NCBI GenBank assembly: GCA_022566355.1
Contig: JADFJB010000096.1
Coordinates: 1-19,032 of the forward strand
Length of the DNA: 19,032 nt
Direction: 5' to 3'
DNA from: a candidate division KSB1 bacterium
GTDB taxonomy: Bacteria; Zhuqueibacterota; JdFR-76; DREG01
The notes beneath the pieces were generated by a model. It had not been told where the DNA came from. It made no database searches and saw only the letters and a list, made by a program, of their open reading frames with translations. The stretch's first letter is position 1. Each line of letters starts with the position of its first letter. Of this stretch, positions 412 to 7,893 are shown piece after piece. A program made the position numbers and the translations under genes.

Positions 412-2421
412 ATGATTCAAATAAAATCAGTTCATCGAAGTTGGTTTGTCCTGGCTTTGTTGATTCTACTATTGTTTTCAACGACAGCGATGACCCAGGA
501 CAAGGTCTTCACACCTGAGATGGTTGTCAGTTTGGAGAGGGTATCCCAGGTTTCTTTGGATCCAACTGGCGAATGGATCGCTTATGTTTTGAGTGTTCCG
601 AGAAGTGAAAAGGATACACCAGGCGGAGCCTATTCTGAAATTTGGGTCGTAGGGACCAAGGGTGGAGAACCAAAGCGATATACTTCGAAGCCTGTTAGCG
701 CATGGTCTGTTGGCTGGTCTCGTGATGGCAAATCGATAACCTTTCTTTCCCATCGCAAGGAGCATGATGCGAATACGCAAGTCTATCAAATGCGCATCGA
801 TGGTGGAGAAGCAACGGCATTAACCCATCATGAAACTTCTGTCAGTTCGTATCAATGGTCACCCGATGGTCAATCAATTGCATTTCTGTCTACCGATCCG
901 GCAACCGATGCGGAAAAGGAAGCAAAAAAAGCTGGAGAAGATTGGCAAGTTGCAGATGAGAATTTCAAGCATCGTCGTTTATGGGTAATGAATGTAGCAA
1001 ACGGGGAGTCACACAAGATTTATGAAAAAGAACTATCTACCTGGAGCTATACCTGGTCCCCGGATGGCAGTAAAATCGCAATACAAGCAACAGATACTCC
1101 ATTGATTGATGATTCCTATATCTACAAAAAGATCTATACCGTTTCTGTAGATGGTGGAGTGCCGGCAATCCTTTGCAAGACCGAAGGGAAAATTGGTAAT
1201 ATGGCATTCTCTCCGGACGGCACCCAGCTTGCTTTTGTTGCTGCCGTAAGTCTTAACGATCCCATAGCCCAGAGTGTGTTTGTGGTTTCTGCAAATGGTG
1301 GAACGGCTAAAAATCTTACCGAGAATTACGGTGCGACAGCTAATTGGATTGGTTGGTTGGACAATAAGGAACTTTTAATGTCAGCTACCGAGGGCACCCA
1401 ATCTTCTCTGAATCGCCTGAATGCCAGTAATGGTAAGATGAAAAAGATTTTTTCCTCGGGAGCAATCTTGCAAAGTTTGAGTATTCAATCAAAAAAAGGT
1501 TTAATAGCAGCGGTCGCTCATACTCCGCAACATCCACAAGAAGTGTTTGCAGGCAAACTCAAAGATGGTAAATTAATGCGGTTAACCAAACATAACTCCG
1601 ATTTAGCCGCAGTCAAATTAGGGAGACAAGAAGTTATTGAGTGGAAGGCCAAAGACGGAATGTCGATTGAGGGTATCTTGACTTATCCAGTCGATTACGA
1701 GCAAGGTCAAAATTATCCCCTGGTTTTGCAAATACATGGTGGACCCGAAGGTGTAAGCCTTAATGGCTGGAATACGCGCTCCGGCTATCCTGTCCAAGTT
1801 TTAGCGGCGAATGGTTATATGGTTCTGGAACCGAATTATCGAGGCAGCGCTGGTAAAGGAGTTGCATTCAGCAAGGCCGATCATGATGATTTAGGCGGCA
1901 GTGAGTTTGATGATGTTTTGTCGGGAATAGACGCATTGATAGATAGAGGCCTGGTCGATCCGGACCGGGTTGGCACTGGTGGATGGTCTTATGGCGGCTA
2001 TTTCTCGGCATGGGCGGCCACTCGTTTTAGTGAGCGATTCAAAGCATCCGTAGTTGCCGCAGGTATTACGAACTGGATTTCGTTCAATGGCACAACCGAT
2101 ATCCCCCATGAAATGTCATTGGTGCATTGGAATTCCTATTGGTACGATCAAAGGGATTTGCACTGGCAGCGATCCCCGATGTACCATATCGAGAAAGCAA
2201 AAACCCCAACTTTGGTTGTGCACGGAATGTCCGACGCACGGGTCCATCCTGGACAGGGAATCGAATTATATACAGCCTTGAAACATAAAAATGTCCCGAC
2301 CAAGCTGGTTTTGTATCCACGCCAACCACATGGTTTGAGAGAAAGAGCGCATCAATTGGATTTCATCAAACGGGTGGTAGCCTGGTTTGATCAGTATTTA
2401 AAAAAAATGGCCACGAATTAA
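412..2421 (+). CDS. Secreted S9 family prolyl-oligopeptidase-like serine peptidase
   Basis: The 669-aa protein starts with a signal peptide: a basic N-terminus, a hydrophobic stretch at about 11-26, and probable cleavage near residue 28. Residues about 45-390 form a beta-propeller, with WSPDG-type (PD40) blade motifs near residues 102-106, 149-153, 215-219 and 266-270. The C-terminal part, about 420-669, is the alpha/beta-hydrolase domain. The nucleophile is Ser526 in GWSYGG, the acid is probably Asp608 in HGMSDARVHPG, and the base is His640 in RQPHG. Length and order match the acylaminoacyl-peptidase / DPP-IV-like branch of family S9, which cleaves short peptides. The start is supported by AAGGAG seven bases upstream. 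Two other exported peptidases follow, suggesting a role in peptide scavenging outside the cytoplasm. Exact specificity cannot be told. Confidence 0.93.
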   Translation: MIQIKSVHRSWFVLALLILLLFSTTAMTQDKVFTPEMVVSLERVSQVSLDPTGEWIAYVLSVPRSEKDTPGGAYSEIWVVGTKGGEPKRYTSKPVSAWSVGWSRDGKSITFLSHRKEHDANTQVYQMRIDGGEATALTHHETSVSSYQWSPDGQSIAFLSTDPATDAEKEAKKAGEDWQVADENFKHRRLWVMNVANGESHKIYEKELSTWSYTWSPDGSKIAIQATDTPLIDDSYIYKKIYTVSVDGGVPAILCKTEGKIGNMAFSPDGTQLAFVAAVSLNDPIAQSVFVVSANGGTAKNLTENYGATANWIGWLDNKELLMSATEGTQSSLNRLNASNGKMKKIFSSGAILQSLSIQSKKGLIAAVAHTPQHPQEVFAGKLKDGKLMRLTKHNSDLAAVKLGRQEVIEWKAKDGMSIEGILTYPVDYEQGQNYPLVLQIHGGPEGVSLNGWNTRSGYPVQVLAANGYMVLEPNYRGSAGKGVAFSKADHDDLGGSEFDDVLSGIDALIDRGLVDPDRVGTGGWSYGGYFSAWAATRFSERFKASVVAAGITNWISFNGTTDIPHEMSLVHWNSYWYDQRDLHWQRSPMYHIEKAKTPTLVVHGMSDARVHPGQGIELYTALKHKNVPTKLVLYPRQPHGLRERAHQLDFIKRVVAWFDQYLKKMATN

Positions 2422-2468
2422 TGGTTAATTGTGAATAGTGAATGATCGAACTGAATAAGCAAATCTAA

Positions 2469-2541
2469 TCTGAATCGGGATTTTCAGGATTATTAGAATT
2501 AATTCTTGTGAATCCTCAAATCCTGATCATCCTGGTTCAGA
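2469..2541. repeat. ATCCTG-type imperfect inverted repeat
   Basis: The left arm at 2469-2491 and the right arm at 2519-2541 are complementary at 19 of 23 positions, with a 27-base loop. Both arms carry the AGGAT/ATCCT words also seen at 16709-16749. It is probably one copy of a dispersed intergenic repeat. It could also fold in the mRNA 3' end of the S9 peptidase gene, but it has no T-tract, so I do not call it a terminator. Confidence 0.6.
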
Positions 2542-2645
2542 CATTTTTTTGACAACCCTTTTTATCAATAATTGCTTCATTTCACAATCATAATTGAAAA
2601 TTACGCCGATTCTGATAATGATTTTGTTCAAGCTGAGCATCACGT

Positions 2646-2747
2646 ATGAAACGGTTTCACTTGTTTGAGTTTGAAGATTTAGACTGGTTCCCCAATGTAA
2701 TTCGCGAGGGAATGACCGATTATCTGCGCTTTTTCATCACAAAATAA
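2646..2747 (+). pseudogene. N-terminal remnant of a class I SAM-methyltransferase-like family
   Basis: The frame from ATG 2646 encodes 33 residues beginning MKRFHLFEFEDLDWFPNVI and ends at TAA 2745-2747. The HLFEFEDxxWFP start and the following D-Y/F-L-R-F stretch are, from memory, the N-terminus of a conserved family annotated as SAM-dependent methyltransferase or hypothetical protein in Bacteroidota, Leptospira and relatives. The full-length protein is much longer, and nothing recognisable continues after the stop in the following 190 bases. No ribosome binding site precedes it. I read it as the leftover 5' end of a deleted gene; family assignment rests on memory of the motif only. Confidence 0.5.
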
Positions 2748-2938
2748 ACAGCAACCTCCTAATCAGATTGATTTATTGCAAGACCGATTTTCTCTTCAGA
2801 TAATATCTGACTGATTTCTCAATTCGTATTTTAACAATAAAAAAATTGAGGCCTTTTTACTTGGAATTTTGCCATCTATTAAGTATTGTTGAGTACCCAA
2901 TAATTGTATTAATTGTAATTCTAATGAGGAGTTAACCT

Positions 2939-4522
2939 ATGAGAAAGTTTACAATAATTATAATATTAATTTGCTTATTTGGTTTTTCGAACTCGGCAGC
3001 GATTGCCCAGAATCTGGCTACCGATGATGAAGTATTGAAACAGATCTGGACAGAGGCCATGGATAACTCGCAATTAAAACAACTTGCCCATGAACTTTTA
3101 GATGTTATCGGGCCACGACTGGTCGGAACACCGCAGATGAAAAAAGCACATGATTGGGCTGTAGAGAAGTACAAAGGGTGGGGCATTTCAGCCAGAAATG
3201 AAGAATGGGGTAAATGGCGTGGTTGGAGAAGAGGAATTTCGCACATCGACATGATGGAACCACGGGTGCGAACTCTTGAAGGAACAATGATGGCCTGGAG
3301 TCCGGGTACATTGGGTCCGCTAAAAGCAAGCTGTATTATTATGCCGGATGTTGCTGATTCAATCGAATTTGAAAACTGGTTGCCCAATGTAAACGGCAAG
3401 TTCGTGCTCATATCAATGCCGCAACCAACCGGCCGCACAGATGATAATTGGGAAGAGTTTGCTACTGAGGAATCCTTCGAAAAAATGAAAGAGGAACGGC
3501 AAAAACTGCGTGATGATTGGCGTGAAAGAGTTAAAAAAGCAGGATACAACCGCAGGACTTTACCAAAAGCTATTGAAGACGCCGGCGCTGCCGGTATCAT
3601 CGCTTCACGGTGGTCAAATGGCTGGGGAGTTAACAAAGTGCTTGGCACTACTACCCAAAGAATTCCAACGGTTGATTTGAGCTTAGAAGATTACGGTTTG
3701 GTGTATCGTCTTGTCGAGCATGGAGATAATCCAATCATCAGGATTATCGCAGATGCGGAATTTTTAGGAGAAGTGCCAACTTTTAATACAATTGCTGAAA
3801 TTAAGGGAACTGAAAAGCCCGATGAATACGTCATTCTCTCTGCTCATTTCGATTCCTGGGATGGAGCCTCCGGTGCAACGGATAATGGAACCGGTACGTT
3901 GACTATGATGGAAGCGATGCGAATTTTGAAAAAGTCATATCCTAAACCAAAACGTACCATCCTGGTTGGTCATTGGGGCAGCGAGGAACAGGGCTTAAAC
4001 GGATCTCGTGCCTTTGTAGAAGATCATCCTGAAATTGTTGAAAACCTGCAAGTTTTGTTTAACCAGGACAATGGCACGGGTCGTGTGGTGAGAATATCCG
4101 GTCAAGGTTTTATCGATGCCGGTATGTTTTTGGCTAAATGGCTTGCTCGAGTCCCCAGCGAGGTGACACGACAGATTAATTTGCGATTACCAGGAAGACC
4201 ATCTCGGGGAGGCAGTGATAATGCCTCTTTCGTAGCTGCAGGCGCGCCTGCGTTTTCCATTGGTTCGTTAAGCTGGGATTATGGAACATATACCTGGCAT
4301 ACCAACAGGGATACTTATGATAAATTGGTTTTCGATGATTTGATGAATAATGTAGTCCTTGCTGCGTCACTGGCATATTTAGCATCCGAGGATCCGGAAT
4401 TGGTATCCCGGGAAAAACGTGTGATGCCTGTAAATCAGGAAACAGGTAAACCGAGGCCGTGGCCAACACCCAGGGAACCCAATCGGAGAGGTGGTTTTCC
4501 GAAAGAGGATAACCGAAACTAG
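2939..4522 (+). CDS. Secreted M28 family zinc peptidase with PA-like domain
   Basis: The 527-aa protein has a signal peptide (hydrophobic residues 5-16, probable cleavage AIA|Q after residue 23). A PA-like insert covers roughly residues 110-260, including the GAAGII stretch near 216-221. The M28 catalytic domain follows, about 285-485. Its metal and catalytic residues are visible: His303 and Asp305 in SAHFDSWDG, Asp315 in GATDNGTG (bridging ligand), Glu349-Glu350 in GSEEQG (general base and ligand), Asp377 in NQDNGTG, and His454 in TWHTNRDTYD. A charged, probably helical insert lies near 175-205 and the last 35 residues are rich in Pro/Arg. M28 members are mostly aminopeptidases or carboxypeptidases using two zinc ions. 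The start has GAGGAG at 2926-2931. Specificity is not readable. Confidence 0.92.
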   Translation: MRKFTIIIILICLFGFSNSAAIAQNLATDDEVLKQIWTEAMDNSQLKQLAHELLDVIGPRLVGTPQMKKAHDWAVEKYKGWGISARNEEWGKWRGWRRGISHIDMMEPRVRTLEGTMMAWSPGTLGPLKASCIIMPDVADSIEFENWLPNVNGKFVLISMPQPTGRTDDNWEEFATEESFEKMKEERQKLRDDWRERVKKAGYNRRTLPKAIEDAGAAGIIASRWSNGWGVNKVLGTTTQRIPTVDLSLEDYGLVYRLVEHGDNPIIRIIADAEFLGEVPTFNTIAEIKGTEKPDEYVILSAHFDSWDGASGATDNGTGTLTMMEAMRILKKSYPKPKRTILVGHWGSEEQGLNGSRAFVEDHPEIVENLQVLFNQDNGTGRVVRISGQGFIDAGMFLAKWLARVPSEVTRQINLRLPGRPSRGGSDNASFVAAGAPAFSIGSLSWDYGTYTWHTNRDTYDKLVFDDLMNNVVLAASLAYLASEDPELVSREKRVMPVNQETGKPRPWPTPREPNRRGGFPKEDNRN

Positions 4523-4540
4523 TTTTTTATTTTAGTAACG

Positions 4541-4588
4541 CATCCCCTTCGACGAGTTTATCCTGAGCATGACGAATGGCTCAAGAGG
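4541..4588. repeat. Fragment of a dispersed intergenic repeat
   Basis: The words CCCTTCGACGAG, GAGTTTATCCTGAGCA and ATGACGAATGGCTCAAG resemble the module inside the MITE-like element at 7631-7794, whose complement reads GAGTTTATCCTGAGCGCAGC. It appears to be a decayed or partial copy. No function is suggested. Confidence 0.45.
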
Positions 4589-4758
4589 TTGCTTGGATAT
4601 GCTGGCTAAAGTTGGCTAATATATGAAATGGGAAGGATCTTGTTAAATATCATCACCTTACGTTATGACATTTAATGCTTGTTAATGTATTCTTTGAGAT
4701 TTTGAGTTTTAACACAGTCTCAAATCTGCTTTCAATAATTCTAACCAAAGGAATAAAC

Positions 4759-6466
4759 ATGATAAATAAAATAAATAAATATTTGTGTTTTCCTTTTATA
4801 GTGTTGTTGGTTTTAAGTCAAAGCGCCATTGCCCAAAACGAAGATCCCCGAAATCCCAATTGGAAAAAATACCATAGTACTACGGACGCATAAACTGTTA
4901 CAAGGTTGGATAACTGAATTTCCGAACCTGACAAATCTTTATTCAATTGGGAAAACCCACAAAGGCACTCAATTGATGGTAATTGAAATTACCAACAAGA
5001 AAACCGGAAAAGCCTCTGAAAAACCGGGTTACTATTATGATGGCAATATTCATGCTGGAGAACTTACCGGTGCTGAAGTCGCTCTTTATTTTGCCTGGCA
5101 TGTTTTGAGTAATTATGGCAAAGATCGACGAATAACCGAACTGTTAGATACACACACACTTTATGTACGTCCTAAGTTTAATCCTGATGGCGCAGATCTG
5201 GCTTTAAACACGCCAATCAATCTTCGCAGCACACCGAGACCTTATGATGAAGATGGAGATGGTTTGTTGGATGAAGATCCAACCAACGATCTGAATAAGG
5301 ATGGCGCCATCACGCGAATGCGAGTTAAAAATCCGAACGGAATATGGAAGATCAGTCAGGAAGATCAGCGGATTATGGTCCGCCGTGAAGATGGCGATTT
5401 ATCCGGCAATTTCTATGATTTATATTCCGAAGGTATCGATGATGATGATGATGGATATTACAACGAAGATGGCATTGGCGGCATCGACATGAATCGTAAT
5501 TTTCCACGCAATTGGGGTCTGGAGTTTGAACAGCGAGGCGCCGGGCCATATCCACTTTCAGAACCGGAAACCCGGGCAACGATTGAGTTTATCAATGCTC
5601 ATCGGAATATTACCGGTGTTTTTCATGGCCATACCTCGGGTGGATTTTTGTATCGGCTCCCTTCGACGACATCCTGGGATAATTATAATCTTGCCGATCA
5701 AAGATTAATTCTCGAATTATCTGATAAATATAAGACCACAACCGGACAACGAGTAGTACCCAGTTATAGCAATCCTAGAATTCATCGACATGGCACATTG
5801 ATAAGCTGGTCTTACTGGGATTTTGGCGTGGTTGCATTTGTACCAGAATTCTGGGGTGGGTTTGGCCGGGATTATGATAAAAATGGCAGCGTAACTGAAA
5901 TCGAACGACTGCGTTGGAACGATGAAGAATTAGGCGGTTCCGGATTTGTTAACTGGCAAAGGTTTGATCATCCAAAATTGGGACAAGTGGAGATTGGCGG
6001 TTGGAAAACCCGTTTTACCCGGCAGAATCCACCCACTCATCTCCTTAAAGGGGAAATCGAAAAATATGTACCCTGGATGCTGTGGCTGGCTGAAATCAGT
6101 CCTCGTATTGTGATTAAAGAAGTTTCTACGGAATTTATTGAAAAGAGTAAAATTGCGAAAATTACGGTTCTCATTGAAAATGAAGGATACTTACCAACCA
6201 ACATCACACAAAGAGCATTGGATGCAAAAATTGCTTCACCTGTTCGTGTATTAATGGACTTGAAAGATGCTGAGCTTATATCAGGCAAAAAGCGGGTAGA
6301 TATTGGACATTTGAATGGCAAACGAGGAAGTCAGGGAGAATCGGCTGATTCCAAACATACCGTTGAATATATCGTCCGTGTAAATGGAAAAAATCCTTCG
6401 GTTTCTGTAACTGTCCAATCAGAAAAGGGTGGGGTGGTGCGGAAGGTTATTTATTTAAGAGATTAA
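4759..6466 (+). CDS. Secreted M14 zinc carboxypeptidase, frameshifted after the signal peptide
   Basis: Translation from ATG 4759 (AAAGGA at 4747-4752) gives a signal peptide with cleavage near AIA|Q, then reaches TAA at 4891. The rest is in the next frame from 4892 to 6466. Dropping one T near 4891 restores a 568-aa protein that joins smoothly (STTDA/KLLQGW). In restored numbering the M14 residues are all present: His98 and Glu101 (NIHAGE), Asn245-Arg246 (MNRNF), third zinc ligand probably His291 (HGHTSGG), and catalytic Glu363 (VPEFWGG). Asp-rich calcium-binding-like loops occur near 163-173, 177-188 and 227-237, and an EF-hand-like loop at 371-382. A beta-sandwich-like domain ends the protein. 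The shift may be a real mutation or an assembly error. Read alone, the 4829 ATG would lack an export signal. It is the third exported peptidase in a row. Confidence 0.85.
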
Positions 6467-6483: not shown

Positions 6484-6619
6484 ACATAACGGTCACGCAT
6501 CAGTTGCGCCGAAACCTCCAGAAGTACTAACTTTCAATAACAACAATTACAACATGCGAGGTACGAGATTTCGAAAAATCGCCACGCGTTTCGGCGTCAA
6601 CTGGATGCGATGGTTAGGT
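6484..6619 (-). repeat. Integron attC-like recombination site (59-base element)
   Basis: Read on the minus strand, the site starts with ACCTAAC (R'', fits RYYYAAC) and ends with GTTATGT (R', near GTTRRRY), 136 bp in all. Between them the arms pair: AGTTGACGCCGAAAC on one side and the complement of AGTTGCGCCGAAAC on the other, plus an outer GCATC stretch. The 5' arm (minus reading) has two unpaired extra bases; on the + strand they are T6597 and G6603 or G6604, the same base identities as the extrahelical T and G of known attC hairpins. The inner part is a long variable loop with a smaller stem. It begins 13 bases after the stop of the minus-strand gene, the normal place for a cassette's attC. 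Confidence 0.82.
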
Positions 6620-6632
6620 GGCAACTGTTAAT

Positions 6633-7334
6633 TTACCTCATTAACAACATTTTCTTTGTTTCTACAAAATCATTACCTACTTGCAATCTATAAAAATAGA
6701 TTCCACTTGAAAACTTACTTGCGTCAAAATTGATAGAATATGTATCTGCCTTTTGAAATTCTCTAACTAAAGTCTGAATGCTCCTACCAAGCATATCATA
6801 AACTTTTAATGTCACAAAATCTGAACGTGGTATGGAATATGAAATCTTCGTTGATGGATTGAATGGATTTGGATAGTTTTGAAATAGATGAAATACTTCA
6901 GGAACACTTCTACTCTCATATTCAATATCGGTCGTTTGTTGAACAAAAATTTTAATTGTATCTGACAAGCCATAACCAATTAATTCACCAGTTATCGAGT
7001 AAGTTCCCTCCTCAAGGCGATAATAATCAGGTGTGTGATTCCAGATCCAAGTATACAATGAATCAGGTGAAATGGTTACTTGAGTTAACACAGCATAACA
7101 ACCGTGATATGAGGCAGAATAGAAATCATCAATGTAGTATTCCGATTGACAAGAACTGGTGAAATACAATGTGAGTGTATCAATTGTAGGATTGTGTGCT
7201 GTGATGTTAATAATAATTGGCTCCTCAACTTGATACTCGGTTTTATCTATAGAAACGGTAATCTCTATTTGAGCCATAACTTCAGCACTTCTGAAAAAAA
7301 TAATTAGTATTGCAATAAATAAGATATTTCTCAT
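6633..7334 (-). CDS. Exported BsuPI-like protein with type IX secretion sorting domain (cassette gene)
   Basis: The 233-aa protein has a signal peptide (hydrophobic residues 4-14, probable cleavage near VMA|Q at 21-22). Residues about 24-132 are beta-rich and resemble the BsuPI / intracellular proteinase inhibitor fold: a domain with N-P-T-x-D-T-L-T-L-x-F, two cysteines (SSCQ and HGCY) that could pair, and a late EEGTYSITGEL strand. Residues about 150-233 are a Por-type sorting domain: FQNYPNPFNPST, VTLKVYDMLGR, GIYFYRL and a C-terminal K-K-M-L-L-M-R. Such domains send proteins through the type IX system to the cell surface. AGGAG lies at 7347-7343, a good distance from the start. It is the only gene on the minus strand and the cargo of the integron-type cassette. 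The BsuPI match is by eye and its activity is unknown. Confidence 0.82.
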   Translation of the reverse strand: MRNILFIAILIIFFRSAEVMAQIEITVSIDKTEYQVEEPIIINITAHNPTIDTLTLYFTSSCQSEYYIDDFYSASYHGCYAVLTQVTISPDSLYTWIWNHTPDYYRLEEGTYSITGELIGYGLSDTIKIFVQQTTDIEYESRSVPEVFHLFQNYPNPFNPSTKISYSIPRSDFVTLKVYDMLGRSIQTLVREFQKADTYSINFDASKFSSGIYFYRLQVGNDFVETKKMLLMR

Positions 7335-7363
7335 GACTATTACTCCTACTATTTTTTAAAGCC

Positions 7364-7370
7364 ACCTAAC
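7364..7370 (-). other. Cassette 5' core recombination site GTTAGGT
   Basis: The minus strand reads GTTAGGT, an exact fit to the integron core consensus GTTRRRY, 30 bases upstream of the cassette gene's start codon. With the next three bases it mirrors the opening of the attC at 6613-6622. The predicted exchange point is between G (7370) and the first T. Confidence 0.72.
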
Positions 7371-7630
7371 TACGTTTATCAAACTATAATAATAGACTAT
7401 ATCTGAAAAAATTATTGGTTAAAAATCTATACGCTCCAAAACATCATGTGATTTAGCAATATAAGAATTGTGATTTCTTTAATCAAGTTCGATTTATTTG
7501 TTTATTAAGAGGCTTTAAAGCTGTTTCAAAAAAATTCCTTTGACAAAACATAAAAAAGATGCTTATTAAAATTGGAACCTAAAAATATTTAATGAAATAT
7601 TAATAAAATATATCCACATTAATGATTAAA

Positions 7631-7794
7631 GACTTCTGAAAAATCAATCAATTGTCATTTCGACGAAGCCCTTCGGCTGCGCTCAGGATAAACTCCGCGA
7701 GGAGAAATCTTGTTCCCACTATGTATAGGCTTTAAAGATTTCTCGTCGTAAACTCCTCGAAATGACAACGTCATAGGTATTTTTAAGAAGTTTC
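7631..7794 (-). repeat. MITE-like palindromic element, copy A
   Basis: The ends are inverted copies of one another (CTTCTGAAAAAT on the left, ATTTTTAAGAAG on the right), followed inward by TGTCATTTCG and its complement, and by AAGATTTCTC-type arms. A 37-base block at 7733-7769 is identical, in reverse complement, to 10990-11026. Relative to copy B it is inverted and contains an extra ~26 bases with the CTCAGGATAAACTCC module. It encodes no protein. Confidence 0.75.
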
Positions 7795-7805
7795 TAGTAC
7801 ATATT

Positions 7806-7823
7806 AGTGCTAAAATTAGCACT
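7806..7823. promoter_or_regulatory. Perfect 8+8 inverted repeat upstream of radA
   Basis: AGTGCTAA and TTAGCACT are separated by AA, 70 bases upstream of the radA start. The short gap makes a stable RNA hairpin unlikely, so a dimeric-protein operator is the better guess. The words are those of the CIRCE heat-shock operator half-sites, but in the opposite order and spacing, so I do not call it CIRCE. Confidence 0.3.
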
Positions 7824-7893
7824 TTTGTGAAATAATATGAACAAAATTTACTAAGCAGTATTAAATTTTCGACTAAGAGCCCTAATAACCAAA

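Follow-up and report, generated by a model that had tools for sequence, protein, structure and literature searches.

How a single gene cassette came to stand in a chromosome with no integrase gene beside it is the question raised by positions 6484–7370 of the window, as the whole stretch of 19,032 nucleotides under analysis is called here. In the initial annotation the locus was described as an integron cassette that had been inserted alone at a secondary site. Cassettes without integrase are common and their origin usually remains unclear; here a retained attI would mark a former integron rather than an off-target insertion, and the locus is very probably the relic of a chromosomal integron, consisting of attI and one cassette in first position pointing away from attI, with no intI.

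The cassette itself occupies 880 bp (6490–7369, minus strand) and, to judge from its sequence, is an integron cassette composed of one ORF, an attC site, and a 5′ core, as had been proposed. Integron core sites are cleaved as G^TT, and the two ends were placed according to this cleavage at the two core sites, with the crossover between 7370 (G) and 7369 (T). The ORF is read towards the attC, and over all 10 nt the 5′ core GTTAGGTGGC (7361–7370, minus strand) is the exact reverse complement of 6613–6622, where the attC opens, as is expected of the two halves of one circular site. The exact complementarity reported for this decamer was confirmed, and each form is unique in the window, the decamer starting at 6613 and its reverse complement at 7361. 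The same 10-nt rule is followed by the first cassette of an integron with intact intI in the relative G002 (GTTATACTAA / TTAGTATAAC). The outer half-site TTATGT (6484–6489, minus strand), assigned from its sequence and the recombination mechanism, may be either the right half of the original attI or the start of a lost next cassette.

The attC (136 bp, 6484–6619, minus strand) is delimited by the R″ box ACCTAAC and the R′ box GTTATGT, with a variable loop between the arms; on the plus strand these boxes read GTTAGGT at 6613–6619, 13 nt past the stop codon of the cassette ORF, and ACATAAC at 6484–6490. When the plus strand of 6484–6619 was folded as single-stranded DNA, the free energy was −25.8 kcal/mol versus −14.95 ± 2.65 kcal/mol for shuffled sequences (z = −4.1), and none of 200 shuffles was as stable. 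On the gene strand the site is arranged as ACCTAAC-CATC-GCAT-(C)-CAGTTG-(A)-CGCCGA ... TCGGCG-CAACTG-ATGC-GTGACC-GTTATGT, where all 16 of 16 stem pairs form and two bases, 6 bp apart, stay unpaired (C and A on the gene strand, that is, G and T on the folding strand). These are the two bases first pointed out as extrahelical, and their register is the usual one of attC sites beside intact intI genes elsewhere in the phylum. The plus strand would be the folded, recombining (bottom) strand.

Further support was obtained from comparison with attC sites extracted beside full-length intI genes of other genomes of the phylum (loci L115, L101, L065, L075, and others). The arm score of the window attC is 18.75, equal to that of the L115 attC and the sole match above 14.5 in the window, while in 60 first-order Markov versions of the window the score had its median at 13.0 and never exceeded 15.4. 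The covariance model R3, built from ten attC sites, all of other genomes, with a 40-nt loop, was run with the Infernal speed filters off over the whole 19-kb window and returned one significant match (6497–6608, minus strand, 20.8 bits, E = 9e-4), the next best having an E value of 0.48, so that a single attC is present. With the default Infernal filters the site was absent from the R3 output (attC sites were detected in 46 of the 84 genomes searched using filters of the default type), and an earlier covariance model with a short loop, R2, missed it, the site probably exceeding the match length that this model expects. The R3 score lies below those of most attC sites of relatives; the window attC is a somewhat weak scorer, and the cassette claim rests on the sum of evidence. 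A scan of the window against Rfam gave no match. The attC-like palindrome announced after the stop codon was thus upheld by its fold, its arm architecture, and the R3 match, the last only with the filters off.

Hairpins often separate convergent genes, and the palindrome contains one weak terminator-like site, no more than is expected by chance; it is nevertheless scarcely credible that the palindrome is a hairpin of another kind, such as a terminator or REP-like element, with core-like motifs arisen by chance. The genome holds no second copy of the palindrome, and against such a hairpin stand the exact attC architecture, the 10-nt complementary 5′ core, the attI flank, the match of an independent model, and a homologous tail followed by attC in another genome, G016, described below.

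The main evidence on the origin of the cassette comes from its 5′ flank. At 7368–7416 (minus strand) lies a conserved block of 49 bp with the core GTAG^TT at its end, identified by conservation and position as an attI-type site and forming the left boundary of the integron relic. When relatives were searched with DNA from around the cassette, 7344–7423 was matched twice, on contig C40 of G002 and contig C94 of G005, and the block is 90–92% identical (44–45 of 49 positions) to the sites on these contigs and on contig C13 of the host genome itself. In both relatives (loci L037 and L038, respectively) the matching block is located about 130 bp downstream of a decayed intI, in which the C-terminal end of IntI can still be read, although it is more decayed in G002. 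The L037 and L038 loci are 86.5% identical over 319 bp and their likeness ends at the core GTT; beyond the core each block-bearing site runs into different sequence. The sequence model R1 (52-bp block) had four strong matches in 118 genomes, namely, the two relatives, the window, and C13:2879–2929 of the host. An attI pattern search through all genome contigs indicated only the relatives G002:C40 (“uncultured Deferribacteres bacterium”) and G005:C94 (“Bacterium BMS3Bbin03”), and none was found in viral contigs. The block ends in AAAC-GTA-GTT, which seems reminiscent of attI1.

The 49-bp block stands beside decayed intI in both relatives and has a second copy elsewhere in the host genome. Its position and conservation thus make the 5′ flank almost certainly an attI, and the locus would therefore be what is left of an integron rather than the product of off-target insertion. 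The earlier proposal of a solitary insertion at a secondary, non-attI site, carried out by an integrase located elsewhere, draws on the lack of intI at the locus, on lone attC sites elsewhere in the host genome, and on off-target insertion as a documented activity of IntI (PMC2426708); since the flank is the same conserved attI block, this proposal is not supported and has become improbable. The block can also be used as a tag for finding integron relics in this lineage. At L037 the cassette behind the decayed intI (4566–5545) carries a MazE/PemK-type pair, and its attC has a mutated R′ box (ATTATAC).

The place where intI is expected, 7417–7893, holds no trace of this gene: tblastn with IntI gave no match there, as the initial annotation had anticipated for the vicinity of the cassette, and no intI 3′ sequence was found beside the window attI, so that the adjacent intI which a complete integron possesses is absent. 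Within this interval lies a dispersed palindromic repeat of about 165 bp (7632–7796, “AGATTTCTCGTCGTAAACTCCTCGAAATGACA”), MITE-like, with 9 further copies in the host genome that are 77–96% identical. In the host genome (4.62 Mb, 213 contigs, 98.5% complete) no full-length intI was found; an intact copy could sit in an assembly gap. What was found is an intI pseudogene with the IntI-specific region (C15:12338–12707, corresponding to 1339–1708 of locus L096), and the closest relative with intact intI is G002 (contig C88). The host thus appears to have lost its integrase, and at the window locus, where no intI trace is left beside attI, intI would have been lost as well. Such pseudogenes and losses are common, about one-third of intI genes being pseudogenes in one survey (PMC2426708).

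Two side observations belong to these integrase loci. At L096 the pseudogene is followed by what by eye is a HigBA-type toxin-antitoxin pair, which resembles the antitoxin ORFs preceding attC sites in other genomes of the phylum, and on G002:C88 (locus L095, 7270–7392) what looks like the 5′ end of a group II intron (“GTGCATCTCACAGGGTGAAAGTCCCTGTCGGG”) stands directly behind an attC, where the contig ends.

The hint of an integron pool in this lineage proved well founded. In addition to the intI pseudogene, the host genome contains a tandem cassette array on contig C200 (attC sites at 247, 1170, 2107, and 3652), lone attC sites on contigs C184, C206, C24, and C3, and the second orphan attI at C13:2879–2929. 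Because C184, C200, and C206 are short contigs of a fragmented assembly, they can be assigned to the host with less confidence than the window. The C13 attI has no intI nearby and is accompanied by decayed cassettes: it is followed by an ORF with HEPN/RES domain, half of a broken attC-like site, and more small ORFs. In the same orphan attI region (locus L094, minus strand, about 2935–1800) a DUF433/PIN-like pair is seen by eye further on.

The presence of two orphan attI loci at unrelated places of one genome, neither with intI nearby and with a likeness confined to the attI block, raises another explanation, in which transposition, or copying of the attI region, distributed units of attI plus cassette that had no intI and were served in trans by an integrase elsewhere, the window locus never having had an intI of its own. 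This course of events is also considered unlikely. An intI remnant lies upstream of attI in both relatives, the C13 attI keeps a 13-nt match to the intI-attI spacer of these relatives (p 0.03–0.04, weak), no intact intI was found in the host genome, and the frequent decay and loss of intI cited above likewise speak against it.

For such an integron relic the following history can be proposed. A functional IntI would have recombined the folded bottom strand (the plus strand of the window) of the attC of a circular cassette with attI. This recombination would have split the attC core, the 5′ junction now being G|TTAGGTGGC, which would be why the junction complements the attC opening. Later IntI would have been lost, probably by deletion, from the locus and apparently from the genome, and with this loss the cassette would be fixed in place, barring an integrase acting in trans.

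The cargo of the cassette is a protein of 233 aa (6633–7334, minus strand). Both of its proposed parts were recognized: a BsuPI-like domain at residues 28–118 (PF12690, E = 1.1e-5, which passes the Pfam cut-off) and, at residues 154–229, a type IX sorting tail (Por_Secre_tail PF18962, E = 2.6e-11; NCBIfam TIGR04183, E = 6.2e-12). The N-terminus MRNILFIAILIIFFRSAEVMAQ has a hydrophobic stretch and is signal-peptide-like by eye. As had been noted, the gene brings its own good ribosome site, AGGAG upstream of the ATG; a candidate for the cassette promoter Pc near attI, TTGATT-17-TATATT, is found at 7486–7458, promoter-like sites being no commoner here than in shuffled sequence, and the gene may be expressed. 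The host possesses SprA of the type IX translocon (TIGR04189 over cut-off, open frame of 2028 aa), and the cassette protein, in which the protease-inhibitor-like BsuPI-like domain is joined to the type IX tail, is probably sent to the cell surface via this system.

The combination is an unusual cargo class, and it indicates that cassettes can carry proteins addressed to type IX secretion. The nearest DNA relatives found for the tail are two genes of G016, a genome of another family. On contig C202 a papain-like protease with tail shares 75% DNA identity with the window through the tail and the stop codon into the attC, and a weaker attC stands in front of this papain-like gene; on contig C81 an attC comes after the gene of a tailed endonuclease/phosphatase-like protein. 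In the examined loci an attC comes directly after 3 of 24 type IX-tailed genes (the window gene and both G016 genes); random segments of the same loci gave 27 matches in 3000. In the ORFs that immediately precede 21 other attC-like sites no such tail was detected. Cassettes with type IX cargo are thus a minority, but more than a single accident. That cassettes can encode secreted proteins is already known (PMC9668308), and in the open-access literature no paper linking type IX cargo to cassettes was found. A wider reading, doubtful at present, is that cassettes of this phylum may act as a modular kit for surface proteins, in which a constant 3′ module of tail and attC is combined with exchangeable cargo domains ahead of it (BsuPI-like, papain-like, or nuclease-like), integrons thereby remodelling the cell surface; it is based on the three cases above, the window tail having its 75% DNA identity with one of the other two.

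As to the neighbourhood, the relatives have radA but other genes upstream of it; with gene order on that side not conserved, they offer no empty site for comparison. In the window three peptidase-like genes lie in a row at 412–6466 (S9-like and M28-like by eye, M14 by Pfam), and these are not beside radA in the relatives.

Compared with known systems, the window shares with sedentary chromosomal integrons, the intI-attI-attC arrays, the attI block, the first-position cassette, and the attC architecture, but differs from them in having no intI and one cassette only. In archaeal integrons attI is located directly downstream of intI (PMC9668308), and likewise it follows the intI 3′ end in G002 and G005. 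Pseudo-integrons with decayed intI (PMC2426708) have their counterparts in G002:C40, G005:C94, and the C15 locus of the host, whereas in the window not even a trace of intI is left. The attC-linked type IX genes of G016 resemble the window in that an attC of shared architecture, with a 73–78-nt loop, comes directly after the tail, and differ from it in cargo domains and in the attC sites themselves, the C202 site having a changed R″ box. Finally, like the CALIN elements and single attC sites lacking integrase (PMC9024848), the window carries an attC-bearing cassette without neighbouring intI; with one attC it forms no cluster, a true cluster being that on C200 of the host. IntegronFinder seeks attI for class 1 integrons only (PMC9024848). 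Unlike CALIN, the window has retained its putative attI, and through it the probable origin of the locus as a former integron is still visible.
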